64,000 bases of DNA, taken from positions 38,425 through 102,424 of the forward strand of contig JAISXH010000037.1 in NCBI GenBank assembly GCA_031270825.1, read 5' to 3'. Numbering within the stretch: position 1 is the first letter of the stretch; every line of letters starts with the position of its first letter. Position numbers and translations under genes: made by a program. This stretch comes from Bifidobacteriaceae bacterium (GTDB lineage: Bacteria > Actinomycetota > Actinomycetes > Actinomycetales > WQXJ01). Under the pieces are notes generated by a model that saw nothing but the letters and a program-made list of their open reading frames with translations, was not told the origin of the DNA and did not search any database. Below are positions 3,142-40,989 of the stretch, piece by piece.

Positions 3142-3942
3142 ATGGTGGCCAAACGCAACTTGCAGCGCGAACGCGAGCGTCGCAAGGCCCTGGCGCGTCA
3201 GCAGCGCCTGATCGCCAAGGCCAAGCGGCGGCGGCGCAACCAAATCATCGCCGGAGTGACCGTGGCGGCGGTCGCTGTCGGCGGTCTGGCCGCCGTGGTG
3301 GTCACCTCCGTGCTGTCCGGTCGCGACAAGACGTCAACGGCAGACTCCGGCACAGGCACGGCTGTCGTCTCCACTGATCCAGAAGCCACCGGCGACGCGA
3401 CCACTCCCGGCGACGGCAAGGCCACCTACACGGCCGTGCCGGATCCGTCCTTAGCCGAGGGCCGCGAATGGACTGGCGCCATGGTGACATCGGCCGGCGA
3501 GATCGGCTTCACCCTGGACGGCGTGGCCGCCCCGCAGGCCACCGCCAATTTCATCCAGCTGGCCAACGACGGCTATTACGACGGCTCATCCTGTCACCGA
3601 CTGACCACGGAGGGCATCTTCGTCCTCCAATGCGGCTCGCTGACCGGCGACGGGACCGACAGCCCCGGCTACCAGTTCGGCCCGGTGGAGAACGCGCCCG
3701 CCGACAGCGTCTACCCCGCCGGCACCATCGCCATGGCCCGCGCCACGTCCGAAGACTCCCAAGGAGCGCAGTTCTTCATCACTTACCAAGACAGCACCAT
3801 CCCCGGCGGATACAGTGTATTTGGGCATGTCACGTCCGGGCTCGAAGCAGTTGAGCAAGTCGCCGCCGGGGGCACCGAGGATGGCGGCACGGATGGGCGG
3901 CCCGCCATTGCCGTGACGATCGATGGGATTGAACTACAGTGA
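3142..3942 (+). CDS. Membrane-anchored cyclophilin-type peptidyl-prolyl isomerase
   Basis: Predicted to catalyse proline cis-trans isomerisation outside the membrane. The 266-residue product starts with a very basic stretch (residues 1-35, [15 protein letters not shown]), then one transmembrane segment (about 36-58) and a Thr/Ser/Gly linker. The cyclophilin fold runs from about residue 110 to 266, with [25 protein letters not shown] and [10 protein letters not shown] recognisable. The ATG at 3142 has GGGGAGG ten bases upstream; the longer track ORF from 2842 is not needed. The stop overlaps the GTG of the DUF349 gene, so the two are translationally coupled. The same neighbourhood near rel is known in mycobacteria (PpiB-like). 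Confidence 0.9.
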
Positions 3943-6167
3943 CCACCCCTGACACCAGCGCCACGCCGGCCCCGCCAGCCGACAGTGCCGCTGTTCCCCT
4001 TCCGAGCGCCGCCGACGCGGACGCGCCGTCACAGGCCGAACCGGAACCGGCTGACGCCGCCGCAGACGCCGATGCCGCCTCGACGCCGGCCGTAGATCCA
4101 GCAGAACCAGTCGAGGTCGCAGGCGAAGCCCCCGAACCGCAGGCCACGCCGGAGCCCGAGCCGGAGCCCGAGCCCGAGCCGGAGCCCGAGCCCGAGCCAG
4201 AACCGGAGCCGGAACCCGAGCCCGAGCCGGAACCCGAGCCCGAGCCGGAACCGGAGCCCGAATCAGAACCGCCAGCCGACGCGGACGCTGACGTTGACGC
4301 CGATGCCGCCTCGCCGCCGGCCGTGGAGCCAGCAGAACCAGCCGAGGTCGCCGGGGAGGCACCCGAACCACAGGCCACGCCTGAGGCGGAACCCGAACCC
4401 GAACCCGAGCCAGAACCGCCAGCCGACGCGGACGCTGACGTTGACGCCGATGCCGCCTCGACGCCGGCCGTGGAGCCCGCAGAACCAGCCGAGGTCACAG
4501 ACAAGACGCCCGAGGCGGAACTCCAGACCGAGCCAGAACCACCGGCCGGCGCCGTGCCGCCGCCACAGGCTGAGCCAGAACCAGCCGAGGCCACAGGGGA
4601 GGCCTCCGAACCCCAGGCCAGACCCGAGCCGGAACCAGAGCCGCTGGCTAACGCTGAGGGCGTCTCGCCGCCGGCCGAGCCCACAAGCGGCCGGGCGGAC
4701 GCCGCTATGGCGCCCGAGGCGACGGAGGGCGCCGAGGGTGAGCAAACGGCATCGGACACAGAGTCTGAACCAACCCCGGCCGGCCCCCCGATCCCGATCC
4801 CCAAGCCCGCGCCCCCGCGCCCCGGCCCCCGGCCCGGAATGGGCCCAAAACCGGGTGCGGCGACGGCGCCCCGACCGCCAGCGCCGGCCGCGGCGCCCAC
4901 CCACGCCGACGAAGACGTGACCAAAGCCTCGAAATGGGGCCGAGTCGATCCGGACGGGACGGTCTTCGTTGTCGACGGCAAGTCGGAGCGGCCCGTGGGC
5001 CAATTCCCGGGCGTGCCGGCTGAAGAGGCCCTGGCGCTCTACGCCCGGCGGTTCCTGGACCTCGAGGCGCAAGTCGACCTATTCGAGGCCAGAGTCGAAC
5101 AGCTGACTCAGCGGGACATCGACCAGACGCTCTCCAGCCTCAAGCAGGCTCTGGCCGAGCCGGCGGCGGTCGGTGACCTGGAGGGCCTGAGGACCAAGTA
5201 CCGAGCCGTCAAGGCTCACGCGGCGGCTGTGCGCCAACGCATCGAGGCTGAGCGGGCGGCAGCCAAAGCCGAGGCGCTGGCCGAACGGACCGCGCTGGTT
5301 GAGCGCGCCGAAGCCATCGCCGAGCTGCATTCCGACCAAGTCAACTGGAAGCAGGCCTCGACCGAACTCAAAGAGATCCTCGATGTCTGGCGCGAGGCCC
5401 AACGCACCGGTCCCAAGATCGATCGCCCCACCGAGGACGAGTTGTGGCGCCGGTTCTCGCATGCCCGCACCGGTTTCGACCGCAAACGGCGGGCCTTCTT
5501 CACCGAATTGGACAAGCGCCAAGGCGCCGCCAAGCTGGCTAAAGAACAGATCGTGACCGAGGCCGAGAAGCTCGCCGCGTCGCAAGACTGGGGAAACACC
5601 GGGCGCGAGTTCCGCAATCTGATGGACCGCTGGCGCGCCGCCGGCAGGCTGTCAAGGCGCGAAGACGACGCCCTTTGGGAACGCTTCCGCGCCGCCCAGG
5701 ACCAGTTCTTCAAACGGCGGGACGCCCAGCACGCCGCCAACGACGCCGAACGGGAAGCCAACCTCGCGGCCAAGCTGGAGGTTGTCCAAGAGGCCGAGCA
5801 GTTGCTGCCCGTCCGCGACATCAAGATCGCCAAAGCCAAGCTGCGGGACTTGGAAGACCGCTGGGACAAGATCGGCCATGTGCCCCGACGCGACCAGGAC
5901 AGGGTCGAGGCCCGCATGAAGGCGGTCGAAGACGCCGTCCGCTCAGAGGAAGAACGTGGCTGGAGGAAGTCCAACCCGGAGACCATAGCCCGAATGGAAT
6001 CGATGACCAGCCAACTCGAGGCCGTCATCGCGGGCCTGGAACGCAAACTGGTCAAAGTCGAGGCCACCGGCGACGCGACATCCATCGCGGCCCTCAAAGA
6101 GGACATCAAGGGCCGCCGCCAGATGCTCGACAGCCTGCGCCAATCCGCGCAGCAGGGTTGGGAGTAG
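3939..6167 (+). CDS. DUF349 repeat protein with a long acidic Pro/Glu-rich N-terminus
   Basis: The 742-residue product overlaps the cyclophilin gene by GTGA. Residues 1 to about 325 are low complexity: an uninterrupted run of Glu-Pro dipeptides (around residues 70-108) set within imperfect repeats of about 60 residues ([22 protein letters not shown] and [11 protein letters not shown]). From [19 protein letters not shown] the protein becomes helical, with successive DUF349 repeats of about 70 residues rich in W, R and E ([45 protein letters not shown]). DUF349 has no firmly established biochemical role. Actinobacterial members usually lie between ppiB-like and rel genes, as here. The acidic tract may be disordered; its length probably varies between strains by slippage. 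Confidence 0.85.
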
Positions 6168-6210: not shown

Positions 6211-6342
6211 CTAGGAGCGTGGTGAATAGCCACGCTCCGACCGTGTTGACTTGGGTCAGCGAAGCGCTGACCTAAGGAAACGCGGCAAGCAAGTGCGGCT
6301 TCGGGCCTAGGAATCCGGTTCATTCACCGGATTCCTAGGCCC
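6211..6342 (+). repeat. Three-hairpin intergenic element, copy A
   Basis: It lies between the convergent DUF349 and rel genes. A first hairpin has arms GGAGCGTGG and CCACGCTCC around a 7-nt loop. A conserved middle (GACCGTGTTGAC, CGCTGACC, GGAAACGCGG) follows. A final 17-bp perfect stem has arm GGGCCTAGGAATCCGGT and loop TCATTC. Two further copies in the same orientation lie at 40680-40807 and 40862-40989. In this position the last hairpin could also serve as a bidirectional terminator, although no U-tract is visible. The 220 bp between the two genes hold nothing else that I recognise. Confidence 0.85.
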
Positions 6343-6386: not shown

Positions 6387-8678
6387 CTAGGCGTGATGAC
6401 GCCCGGAGCCGGTGATGCGATAGGCGTCGAAGACGCCGTCCACGCGGCGGATGGCGGCCAACACCGCATCCAAGTGAGACGTGTCAGCCAATTCGAAGAC
6501 GAAGCGATTGATGGCCACGCGGTCTTTGGTCGTGGACACCTCGGCCGACAGGATGTTCACATGGGCCTCCGAGAGGGCCTTGGTCACATCCGAGAGCAGA
6601 TGGTGGCGGTCCAGCGCCTCGACTTGGATCTGGACCAGGTAGGACCCTTGGACGTGATCCCGCCATTCGACATCGACAATCCGCTCCGGCGATGTCTTCT
6701 CCGCCTCCTGGACGTTGGCGCAATCGACCCAGTGGACCGAGACCCCCGAACCGCGGGTGATGAAGCCAATGATTTTGTCTCCCGGCACTGGCGTGCAGCA
6801 GCGGGCCAACTTGACCCAGACGTCATCGACCCCGTGGACCACAATGCCGGGATCACCGCTGGCGCCGGCGGGGCTGAGCCGGTGTGACAATCCCGGCCGG
6901 GAGACCTCGACCACGTCTTCCTCGTTGGCGGCCTCCCCGCCCAGGGACGCCACCAGTTTCTCGACCATGGAATGGGCCGAGTAGCGGCCCTCGCCGACAG
7001 CCGCATACAGGGCCGAGACATCTTGGAACCGAAGCTCATTGGCCAGGGCGAGCAAGGTCTCATGCGACATCAGCCTCTGAATCGGCAGATTCTGCTTACG
7101 CATCTCCTTGGCGATTTGGTCCTTGCCGCGCTCGACCGATTCCTCGCGACGCTCCTTGGTGAACCACTGCCTGATCTTGTTGCGCGCGCGCGGAGACTTG
7201 ACGAACACCAACCAATCGCGCGAGGGCCCCTGGCCGGGCGTCTTCGAGGTGAAGATCTCAACCACGTCGCCGGTTTGGAGTTCCGTGTCCAAAGCCACCA
7301 GGCGCGAATTGACCCGGGCGCCAACCGTCCGGTGGCCCACTTCGGTGTGGACGGCGTAAGCGAAGTCGACTGGAGTCGAACCCGAGGGCAGCGCCAACAC
7401 GTCGCCTTTGGGCGTGAAGACGTAGACCTCCGCCCGACCGATCTCATAACGCAGTGAATCGAGGAACTCGCCCGGATCCTGGGTTTCGCGCTGCCACTCG
7501 ACCAACTGGCGCAGCCAATCCATATCGGCGCCGCCATTGGCGGTCGAATGCGCCCCTTCCTTGTACTTCCAGTGCGCGGCCACCCCGTATTCGCTGCGTC
7601 GGTGCATCTCATGGGTGCGGATCTGGATTTCGACCGGCTTTCCGGAAGGCCCGATCACGGTGGTGTGCAGCGACTGGTACATGTTGAACTTGGGCCGGGC
7701 TATGTAGTCCTTGAAGCGTCCCGGCACGGGATTCCAGCGCGCATGCATAGCCCCCAGAGCGGCGTAGCAATCCCGCACCGAATCAACCAGGACACGAACC
7801 CCGACCAGGTCATAGATATCGGTCAGGTCGCGTCCCCGGACAATCATCTTCTGGTAGATCGAGTAGTAGTGCTTCGGCCGGCCGGTCACCACGCCCTTGA
7901 TTTTGTTGGCCCTGAGGTCGGCCTTGACCTGCTCGGCCACCACCCGGAGGTATTCGTCGCGGGCCGGGGCGCGTTCGGCCACCACCCGGACCACTTCCTC
8001 GTAGACCCGGGGGTGCAGCGTGGCGAAGGAAAGGTCCTCCAACTCCCATTTGATCGTGTTCATGCCGAGACGATGAGCCAGCGGAGCGTAGATCTCAAGG
8101 GTCTCGCGCGCCTTCCGCTCCGCCGATTCCGTCGAGACATACTTCCAAGTCCGCGCGTTGTGCAAACGGTCGGCCAACTTGATCAACAGCACTCTGATGT
8201 CTTTGGCGGTGGCGATCACCATCTTGCGCACAGTCTCCGACTGCGCCGCCTCGCCGTACTCGACCTTGTCGAGTTTGGTCACGCCATCGACCATCTGCGC
8301 GATCTCGTCGCCGAACTCGCGCCTGAGTTCGGTCAGCGAGTAGGTCGTGTCCTCGACCGTGTCATGCAGAAGCGCCGCCGCCAAGGTGGACGGCGTCATG
8401 CCGAGTTCAGCCAAGATGGTGGCCACGGCCACCGGATGCGTTATGTAAGGCTCGTCGTTCTTGCGCACCTGGCCTTCATGGACGCGCTCGGCCACCGCGT
8501 AGGCCCGCTCCACCAATTCGGTGGAGGTCTTCGGGTGCGAAGCTCTGAGAGCCGCCAACACGGGTTCCAGGGCGGCTGGCACCGCTGGGTGCGTCCGGAA
8601 GCCGGGGAGCCAGGACAGCGGGCCGGTGTGGGCGCCAGACTCCACCTGAGCTCTGGGGGTGGTGCCGGCCTCAGTCAT
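6387..8678 (-). CDS. rel: Bifunctional (p)ppGpp synthetase/hydrolase (Rel/RSH)
   Basis: Makes and degrades the alarmone (p)ppGpp. The 763-residue protein has the full long-RSH domain order: an HD hydrolase domain (LLHDTVEDT near residue 90), a synthetase domain with [12 protein letters not shown] near residue 320 and [22 protein letters not shown], a TGS domain (about 400-460, [31 protein letters not shown]), a zinc-finger/helical region with CCTPVPGD, and a C-terminal ACT domain. The RxKD-type synthetase motif and the intact HD residues argue for both activities, as in the single actinobacterial Rel. It lies downstream of apt in the conserved secDF-apt-rel order. Confidence 0.95.
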
Positions 8679-36886: not shown

Positions 36887-37042
36887 GGCTTCGCCTCGCC
36901 ACGTCACCGCCACAGCCGGCGGCGCCAGACCAGAACCGCTCGACCGAGGCTAGACCGGCCGGGCCGAGCTTCGCTTCACCACGTCACCGCCACAGCCGGC
37001 GGCGCCAGACCAGAACCGCTCGACCGAGGCTAGACCGGCCGG
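36887..37042. repeat. 80-bp direct duplication across the lysX 3' end
   Basis: Bases 36901-36962 are identical to 36981-37042 (62 of 62), with imperfect matching for about 14 further bases on the left. The right copy contains the last codons of lysX (RPV and TAG); the left copy repeats them outside the gene. Together with the arg control region it fills the gap between argC and lysX. Confidence 0.9.
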
Positions 37043-40000
37043 ACGAACGGGAAGGTCAAAGTGTCCCGGATGGTGGTGCCCGTCAGGGTCATCACCACAC
37101 GGTCCACGCCCAGGCCCAAACCCCCGGTGGGCGCCAGGCCGAAGTCCAAGGCGTTCAAGAAGTCCTCGTCCAGTTCCATGGCCTCCGGATCGCCGGCCGC
37201 CGCCTTGGCCGATTGGTTGGTCAGGCGCTGACGCTCGTCCACTGGATCAGCCAGTTCCGAATAGGCGGTGCCGACCTCGGCGCCGAAGGCCACCAAGTCC
37301 CACCGCTCGGCCAGCCCTGGGATGGACCGGTGAGCGCGGGTCAACGGAGACGTCTCAACCGGGAAATCTTGATAGAAGGTCGGCTCGAAGGTCTGGCCCT
37401 CGACCAACTGGTCGTACAACTCGGCCACGATCTCGCCGGCGGTCCATTCGTCGCGCCAGGCGACGCCCGCCCGCGTCGCCAAAGACCTCAGCTCAACCAC
37501 TCCCGTGGCCACGGTGACGGAAACGCCCAAGGCCGCCGAGACGGCATCGTGCACCGAAATCACCGGCCAATCCCCCGCCAACGGCACCTGGCGCCCGTCC
37601 GGTGCCACCGCCACCGCCTCGCCGTGGACCGCCAAGGCCGCCGCCCGAATCAACTCCTGGGTCAACAAGCGCATGCCCTGGTAGTCGGAGAAGGCCTGAT
37701 AGGCCTCCAGCGAGGTGAACTCCGGGTTGTGCTTGCGGTCCACGCCCTCGTTGCGGAAGTTCTTGCCCAACTCGAAAACACGCTCGACTCCGCCCACGGC
37801 CAGCCGTTTGAGGTACAACTCCGGCGCGATCCGAAGGTAAAGATCCATGTCATAGGCGTTGATGTGGGTGCGGAAGGGCCGCGCGTTGGCGCCGCCGTGA
37901 ATCGGCTGCAAGACCGGCGTCTCGACCTCGATGAAACCGCGCTCCTGAAGGGCCGCCCGCAAGGCCGCCGTCGCCGCCGAGCGCGCGTAGACCAACCCCA
38001 TCGCCCGATCATTGGTCGCCAGCAGCAAATGCGGCGCCCGCGCCAGCGCCGCGCCGGTCTTGGGCGTGACCGCCTCCAGGCGCCGTTTCGACGGCGGATG
38101 CGCCACCGACTTGGCGGCCATGGTCCACCTAGTCGCGTCCAGGGCCAACTGCCCGCTGCAGGTGCGCGTCAACGACCCGGTCGCGGACACCAAATCGCCC
38201 AATTGCGCGTGCCGCTTGAACAGGTCGAATCCGGCGGTTTCCCGCCGCTGCGCCATCAGTTGGAGTTCGACCACGCCCTCGCGCAGGTCGGCGAACACCA
38301 CCCCGCCGTGGTCCCGCTTGCGCAAAATCCGGCCGACGATTGAGATCTCCCCCGCCGATGCCGTGGCCGCGCCTTCCAGCCCCACCGCCAGGGGCAGGCT
38401 CCCCGGCGCCGCGCCCGCATCCGCAACCACACCCGCCGAGGCGGATTGGACCTTGGCCGGCCCGGTTCTGGACCTGTCGGTTTCAGGCCTCTCAATTTCG
38501 GTCGTCTCGGTTTCGGTCGCCTTAACCTTGGCCGTCTCAGTGCGGTCCGCGCCAGCCGCGCAGGCTCTGTCTTCGCCGACAACCGTGGGGACGTCCACGG
38601 CGCGCTGGACCGCCTGACGCAGCGACATGGTGCGAGGCACGGCCACCGGATTGGGCGCCATTCCGGCGGCCGCCAAGGCCTCCCGGTGCTTCAAGCGCGC
38701 CGCCACCACCCGGTCCGGGGGCTTGGAGCTGATGGGCGCCAGGAGCTCGGAGCGGTCCAGCCGCGCGACCGCCTCCGCCAGGGCCGGGTCGCTCCGGGCC
38801 TCGAAGCGGCCGGCGCCCGGAAGCAGTTCCGCCGGCGAGCGGTTCGGCAGGAAGCCCTCGGCCCGGCCGATCGCCATCACTACTTCTGCCAGGGAGGCGC
38901 CGTGGTCGAAGCAGATCATGCGGGGCTGCCACTCTGGCAGATATTTCTCGTTCGACCGGTAGAGCCCGTCGATCTGCCACCAGCGCGAGGCCACCAGGAG
39001 CAGTCGGCGCACCAGCCGCGCCATCGGGTAGGCCCCGACCTGGCCTCCTTCCACCAAGAACCTTCGCAGGACGGCGAAATTCAGCGAAATCCGCTCGATT
39101 CCCAGATCCCGCGCCGCCTCGATCAGCCCCGTCACCATTAGCTCGGTGGCGCCGCCATGGGCCCTGGGATCGTGGCGCATGACGTCCAAAGAGGCCCCCC
39201 GCCGCCCCCATGGCGCGAACGTCAGCAGCGCCCGGACCTGCCCGGACGGATCGTGCGCGGTCACCACCAGGTCGCGCCCGTCGGTCGGGTCGCCAACCCG
39301 GCCGGACGTCATCGAGAACCCCCGCTCGTCGCCGCGCCGCCAGAATTCGGCATCGCGCGCCAGCACCGCCAACTCTGGCGGCGGGATCTGGTCCTGGCGT
39401 CTGACCTTGACGGTGTAACCGGCCCGGCGCGCCCGCCGCGCCGTCTCGGCCACGGGTCGCAATCTGGGATCGCGCAGCGAGAACTGGTCGGGGTGGATGA
39501 CCGCCTCGTCGCCCAGTTCGAGCGAGCGCAGCCCGGCCGTTTCCCAGGCCCGGCCGCCTCGCCTGGTGGCGGAGACCACCGCCGGGGTCCAGCCGTTGCG
39601 TCTGGCCAGCTCAATCCAGCGCCCGATGCCGTCCGCCCACGAGGCGCGGTCCCCCACCGGATCGGAACTGGCCAGCAAGACGCCGCCGATCAGCTTGCCC
39701 ACCACGGCGGCCCGTCCGTCGCCCGAGAAGACAGCCGACTTGTCGTGCCGCAGGTTGTAATAGCCCAGGGAATCCTGCTCGCCAAACTGCCACAGCAAAC
39801 GTCGCAGCGCCAGTTCTTGATCGTCGGTGATGGCGGGCAGACTGCGCTCGGAACGGGTGAACACGATCAGCGCGGCCAGGACGGCGAGCATGCCCAGCAC
39901 CGATGTGGTGCGAGGCACCCACCAGGGCGCGACTGCGGCCGCTCCGGTGGGCAGCAAGTGAGGCCGCGCCATCCCCGCTCCGGTGACGATCTCCTCTGGT

Positions 40001-40632
40001 CCCTGTCCCAGCGCCACGTTGAGCGCCCACCAGGCCTTCAGAGCCAGTGAGGCGCCACTCGATCCGACTGTGGCAGCCCATGCGAAAGCCCACGCCGCCG
40101 CCACAGCGAGGCCTGCCGCCAAAGTGCTGGCCGCCCGTCCCACCGCCCGCCGGGAGACCGGCGCGCCAAAGGCCCGGCGATGTGACACCAGCCACCATGA
40201 GCTTGCGACAGCCACCACGACGCTGACCGCCACCCGTGCCGGAACGGCCTGGAGGCCCAGGCGGTGCAACAGGCCGGGATAAATCAGATCATGCCAATCG
40301 AAACCGGCCGCCGAGGCCACCGCCAGGACGCCGGCATAGATCAGCGCCGGCGCTTGGATCACCAAGATGACAGTCCACAGTGCGGCCCGCTTGCGGTGTC
40401 GGATGGCCGAGGCCAAAACCGCCAGAGCGGCGAAATTGAACAACGAGGGGTTGCCGGGCAGGTTGACGGCGTCAAGGGCGGCCCAGATCAGCTGGTACGC
40501 ATGCGGGAACAGGCGGCGCACCGGTAGGGCGATCAGAGCCCAGATAGCGGCGAAAGCGAGAATTCGGGCGGTCCAAACCGGCGTTCGACTAGCCCTCCAG
40601 TCACGGGCCTCGACAGCGCTCCGCTTGGCCAT
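37030..40632 (-). CDS. lysX: LysX-type fusion: lysyl-phosphatidylglycerol synthase and lysyl-tRNA synthetase
   Basis: Predicted to charge tRNA-Lys and transfer lysine to phosphatidylglycerol, which lowers membrane negative charge and helps resist cationic peptides. The 1200-residue protein has N-terminal transmembrane helices (about residues 20-280), an MprF-type DUF2156 transferase domain (about 290-610), a Thr/Glu-rich linker (about 650-750), an OB-fold starting near [15 protein letters not shown] (762) and a class II LysRS core with [26 protein letters not shown] (about 950) and [11 protein letters not shown] (about 1172). An ATG with AAAGGA upstream sets the start. A separate housekeeping lysS may exist outside the window. 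Confidence 0.92.
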   Translation of the reverse strand: [1200 protein letters not shown]

Positions 40633-40679: not shown

Positions 40680-40807
40680 CTAGGAGCGTGGTGAATAACC
40701 ACGCTCCGACCGTGTTGACGCAAGGCAGCGGGACGCTGACCAGCGGAAACGCGGCAGTAGGCGCTGCCTCGGCCCTAGGAAGCCGGTTTATTCGCCGGCT
40801 TCCTAGG
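40680..40807 (+). repeat. Three-hairpin intergenic element, copy B
   Basis: It lies 48 bp upstream of lysX in the divergent lysX/malE gap. The first hairpin is identical in stem to copy A (GGAGCGTGG/CCACGCTCC). The last stem is CCTAGGAAGCCGG with CCGGCTTCCTAGG; the T-A pair of copy A is replaced by G-C on both arms, a compensatory change. Confidence 0.85.
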
Positions 40808-40861: not shown

Positions 40862-40989
40862 CTAGGAGCGGGGCGAACAACCACGCTCCGACCCTGTTGA
40901 CGCGGGGCGCCGGAACGCTGACCAGCGGAAACGCGGAAGGCAAAGGCTGCTTCGGCCTAGGAGACCGGGTTGTTCACCGGTTCCCCAGG
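40862..40989 (+). repeat. Three-hairpin intergenic element, copy C
   Basis: Tandem neighbour of copy B, 54 bp apart, same orientation, more degenerate. It keeps CCTGTTGACGCGG, ACGCTGACCAGCGGAAACGCGG, GCTGCTTCGGCCTAGGA and a weakened last stem. The right arm of the first hairpin (CCACGCTCC) is unchanged, but the left arm has GGAGCGGGG. Confidence 0.75.

Follow-up and report, generated by a model that had tools for sequence, protein, structure and literature searches.

In BIMEs and REPINs, a linker separates two inverted hairpins that each have a tetranucleotide foot; the units occur in many intergenic copies and in tandem arrays, show compensatory changes in their stems and contain no gene (PMC3116915, PMC8266576). 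The foot is GT[AG]G and stands 5' of each hairpin (PMC6006769), and the cognate Y1/RAYT transposase gene is flanked by the repeat, which its enzyme cleaves in single-stranded form. In the TIRYT families, the Y1-type genes carry a C-terminal extension and are flanked by repeats beginning with GGGG[AT][CG]A[CG] (PMC3733652, PMC6006769). MITEPsy1 of Pseudomonas syringae is an IS5-type MITE of about 100-130 nt with the ends GGAAGGTCTGAAAAAGCC and GGA...GAANAA...CC repeats, which inserts at CTAG or YTAA with a 4-bp duplication (PMC3189936).

Here we describe an element of about 128 nt that lacks genes and is present in about 60 copies in a 2.94 Mb draft genome of the Bifidobacteriaceae. It has the general build of BIMEs and REPINs, with two inverted palindromes, complementary loops (GAAYA/TRTTC), many intergenic copies, tandem arrays and compensated stems. 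It differs from them in its foot, which is CTAG in most copies, in a linker that forms a conserved structured core, in a Y1 gene flanked by GGGGAC repeats of its own instead of the element, and in its siting at CTAG and stop codons. With MITEPsy1 it shares the size range, insertion at CTAG (or YTAA) and the pattern of the repeats, and with MITEs at large the absence of coding capacity, a length below 300 bp and terminal inverted repeats. Unlike MITEPsy1, it has a long compensated hairpin at each end and a structured core, its target duplication is putative, and no IS5-type parent was found. The TIRYT repeats form a distinct family, which these genomes contain as well, together with Y1-type genes with a C-terminal extension. 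The literature was searched for a published account of the element family, and none was found. The family very probably represents non-autonomous, hairpin-ended miniature mobile elements of the Bifidobacteriaceae, similar to BIMEs/REPINs or to MITEs.

Results

The window, a stretch of 64,000 nt from contig JAISXH010000037.1, contains three copies in the same orientation (+ strand), the ends of which were set by the CTAG boundaries seen throughout the family. Copy 1 extends from CTAG to CTAG (6211..6338) between two convergent genes, a DUF349-type gene (3939-6167, +) and relA (6387-8678, -). It is composed of a left-end hairpin with a 10-bp stem and the loop GAATA (6214..6238), a core hairpin (CCGTGTT GA ... 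GA AACGCGG, 6241..6285) and a right-end hairpin whose 14-bp stem takes in the terminal CTAG (6306..6339). Copy 2 (40680..40806, CTAG to CTAG) and copy 3 (40862..40988, CTAG to a mutated CCAG) are located between divergent genes. The left-end, core and right-end hairpins of copy 2 occupy 40683..40707, 40710..40754 and 40774..40807. In copy 3, the core (40892..40936) stands between imperfect left-end (40865..40889) and right-end (40956..40989) hairpins. Copy 3 is the most decayed of the three; the minimum free energy z-scores of the + strand against shuffled sequence were -11.1, -7.8 and -2.1 for copies 1, 2 and 3, respectively. A preliminary description of this DNA had reported the three copies, their tripartite build and their gene contexts, all of which were borne out. 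Its reading of the conserved core as single-stranded had to be revised, as most of the core is base-paired. Close to the N-terminus of the protein that we read as DUF349-type lies an extended EPEPEP repeat, the DNA of which gave weak matches elsewhere in the congeners. Another open reading frame of the window (37030-40632, -) encodes 1200 amino acids, in which we read the fusion of an MprF-like domain with a lysyl-tRNA synthetase.

Across the family, the unit runs from CTAG through a left hairpin (10-bp stem, loop GAAYA), a core hairpin (CCGTGTT/AACGCGG around a GA/GA internal loop) and a short variable part to a right hairpin (14-bp stem, loop TRTTC) that ends in CTAG. The two end hairpins are inverted relatives of each other with the pattern GGA-N7-GAAYAA-CC. 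In 119 copies the left-end hairpin was paired to 90-97% at each position, with several types of base pair. Among 71 aligned copies, 90.9% of the cells of the three-hairpin structure were paired and 27 pairs had changed on both sides, values reached by none of 500 shuffles; the core hairpin alone also had covariation support, although weaker. These pairs were counted on the named structure instead of the RNAalifold consensus, which kept only 6 pairs on the 71-sequence alignment, probably because some subfamilies are base-shifted in it. Mispairs of the types G.T and A.C were about equally frequent in the end stems (52 versus 54), indicating that the stems behave as DNA palindromes rather than as one RNA strand.

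Several copies depart from this plan. Tandem copies have a period of about 123 nt and one CTAG in common. Two divergent copies (L011, 1374-1505; L053, 1498-1647) possess ordinary ends and a replaced or lengthened core, and a unit of about 66 nt (L076 of G004:C26, 4081-4146) joins the left end almost directly to the right end, without a core. In two tandem copies at 1500-1752 of L067 (G003:C201), the right-end loop is GAATAA in place of the usual TTATTC and shares the strand sense of the left loop. Kissing loops between the end hairpins were considered but not adopted: the loops do covary, yet inverted repeats that a single protein reads would be expected to do so just as well, and the right loop of the L067 copies has the opposite orientation.

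The copy number in the host genome was assessed by several approaches. BLAST yielded 41 near-full matches and a profile model 61 copies above 50 bits, while a left-hairpin pattern with up to 3 mismatches gave 74 matches, some of them one copy counted on both strands owing to palindromy, against none for the reversed control pattern. With the profile model, copies were detected in seven of nine sampled congeners, and two further genera of the Bifidobacteriaceae had them too; G005 and G007 had none, in a set of fragmented drafts with several incomplete relative genomes. The element-rich genomes were G000-G004, G008, G009, G012 and G017. An exact search for the core in one genome per species, covering 85,462 species, matched solely metagenome-assembled genomes of the Bifidobacteriaceae, for which we infer a termite-gut origin from the isolate naming. 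Phages, plasmids and viral contigs contained no match to the element. In the copy-rich genomes, the nearest relatives of each copy were copies of the same genome, which indicates species-specific expansion. Further copies and covarying stems, whose absence the preliminary description had named as speaking against such a family, were thus both present. Inverted repeats of a second terminal-repeat family, of the type GGGGAC[AG]GG(T/C)CC, were observed beside Y1 (IS200-like) genes in L096 (40-1355) and also in L098, L101 and L102.

Comparison with relatives revealed empty sites. The junction between the DUF349-type gene and relA was empty in all six congeners in which the two genes are adjacent (G001-G004, G006, G008), G007 and G009 having other sequence between them. 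The stop codons of phosphomannomutase and aspS, both directly followed by an element in the host, had none directly 3' in 8/8 and 9/9 orthologues, respectively. The copies at these three checked sites are therefore insertions.

Most copies are bounded by CTAG, and TTAG and CTAA also occur. CTAG is four-fold rare in the host, with 714 occurrences observed and 2680 expected. A gene ends at the terminal tetranucleotide in 21 of 61 copies (left end, 12; right end, 9), and in 19 of these 21 the tetranucleotide is CTAG with TAG as the stop codon; the gene-end case of L189 was discounted because the right end of the copy is lost. For phosphomannomutase and the genes ending in ...GRLSP[AV]-stop and ...PVVR-stop, the gene ends (which include ...EPH-stop) agree with those of orthologues without the element, so that insertion did not truncate these checked genes. 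Occupied CTAG sites amounted to 23% of those at stop codons, 13% of the other intergenic ones and 0.5% of those within genes, the excess at stop codons over other intergenic sites being modest (p = 0.009). According to gene calls at the 61 sites, which came from a codon-usage script and not from curated annotation, 19 copies are located between convergent, 24 between co-directional (both orientations) and 12 between divergent genes. Convergent gaps were enriched, with 19 of 55 copies versus 14% of the intergenic bases (p = 1e-4). Despite the CTAG at both ends, the copy-by-copy identity of the 5' and 3' tetranucleotides was not above that of shuffles (p = 0.92); CTAG is its own reverse complement, and drift has altered old copies.

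Discussion

The proposal of a small non-autonomous mobile element, made in the preliminary description, is well supported by the copy number, the species-specific expansion, the empty sites in relatives and the CTAG target. In the mechanism we envisage, an enzyme acting in trans would recognize the two inverted end hairpins, a role suggested by their observed structure, inverted relation and compensatory changes. A unit of about 124 nt would be inserted at YTAG and leave CTAG at each end, either as a true 4-bp target duplication or with one CTAG carried by the element itself. Copies persist where they do little harm, at a CTAG with a TAG stop codon, which is restored on insertion, and in gaps between convergent genes. 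The conserved core hairpin is probably needed for mobilization.

As mobilizing enzymes, Y1_Tnp, DDE_Tnp_1, DDE_3, DUF4096 and DDE_Tnp_4 do not fit. Y1 was the first candidate, and in a strict BIME/REPIN system the genome's single-copy Y1 (RAYT-type) transposase would mobilize a REP and an inverted REP joined by the linker. Such a system would account for the inverted hairpins with a tetranucleotide foot, the tandem arrays and the one Y1 gene of the host; moreover, Y1 occurred in 6 of 11 genomes with the element and in 0 of 7 without it (p = 0.025, with no correction for relatedness), and in G001 an element lies about 170 bp from the Y1 gene. The candidate is weakened by inverted GGGGAC[AG]GG repeats, which stand on both sides of Y1 in G000, G009 and G004 and on one side in G001, compared with a background density of 0.04 per kb, and which thus point to a different terminal-repeat family. 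An element is near only one of eight Y1 loci, many elements occur in G003, G012 and G017, where no Y1 was found, and the feet are not GT[AG]G. Unlike in a non-autonomous IS200/IS605 derivative, the orientation of the 61 copies was unbiased relative to local GC skew (p = 1.0), a rough proxy on contigs. Taken as a whole, mobilization by Y1 appears unlikely. A MITE of a DDE-type, IS5-group element with a 4-bp YTAR target duplication, the parent of which is now gone, is possible though doubtful. The ends of the element (GGA-N7-GAAYAA-CC) resemble those of MITEPsy1 (PMC3189936), and the TTAG and CTAA boundaries as well as the palindromic behaviour of the end stems agree with such a MITE. However, the host has neither DUF4096 nor DDE_Tnp_4 (PF13340, PF13359), none of the examined transposase loci (PF01609, PF13358) has ends matching the element, and IS5-group MITEs would not be expected to carry a long compensated palindrome inside each of their terminal repeats. 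Many elements are also found in G002 and G012, which have no DDE_Tnp_1. The one DDE_Tnp_1 protein of the host, which we take to be an ISAs1-type enzyme, likewise speaks against an IS5-group parent. The search for an autonomous relative with the same ends revealed one copy with a left end only, some truncated copies and no flanked open reading frame, and the left-end pattern led to no parent insertion sequence with the same ends in G000 and G003. IS630, considered as a partner for the TA within CTAG, was rejected, as the host lacks a DDE_3 gene.

Two readings place the function of the repeats in the cell. If selection had spread the repeats as bidirectional transcription terminators or as elements of mRNA 3' ends, their enrichment in convergent gaps would be explained, and the very stable right hairpin can directly follow a stop codon. 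Yet 12 copies are situated between divergent genes, no T-run of an intrinsic terminator was found in the flanks, including 3' of the right hairpin, and the CTAG boundaries are left unexplained, which makes this origin very unlikely. A terminator scan had one match inside copy 2 (40769-40786), which draws on the left arm of the right hairpin and on its loop, not on the hairpin itself. The mixed gene contexts and the missing T-run concur with the earlier view that termination by itself does not account for the repeats, and terminator function may be a secondary use of the element. A multiplied family of cellular structured RNAs or cis-regulatory RNAs is highly improbable. The preliminary description had offered structured RNAs as an option, of which the covarying three-hairpin build supports the structure only; one U.G pair persists in 60 of 71 copies without ever being A.C, and in 56 of 61 copies the better fold is that of the top strand, a difference that may rest on shared ancestry. 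The near-equal G.T and A.C mispairs in the end stems tell against RNA, as do the inconsistent position and orientation relative to genes, the empty element sites in relatives and the absence of an Rfam family for the element (no match at the gathering score, and sub-threshold matches only at a relaxed limit). The data can be explained without a cellular RNA function. It is, finally, highly improbable that the repeats form a new class of miniature elements, in which an unrecognized CTAG-inserting enzyme would be guided by the core hairpin, in the form of structured RNA or of single-stranded DNA, and gene stop codons would be rebuilt on insertion.

Non-autonomous, hairpin-ended mobile elements thus offer the best account of the repeats. 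The repeats constitute a high-copy hairpin-ended family in a lineage for which no such family was found described. Within one genome, two repeat systems can be told apart, the element and the Y1-associated GGGGAC repeats, instead of being taken together for a single REP-RAYT system. Through a rare tetranucleotide in which a stop codon is often contained, an element can spread without breaking genes.
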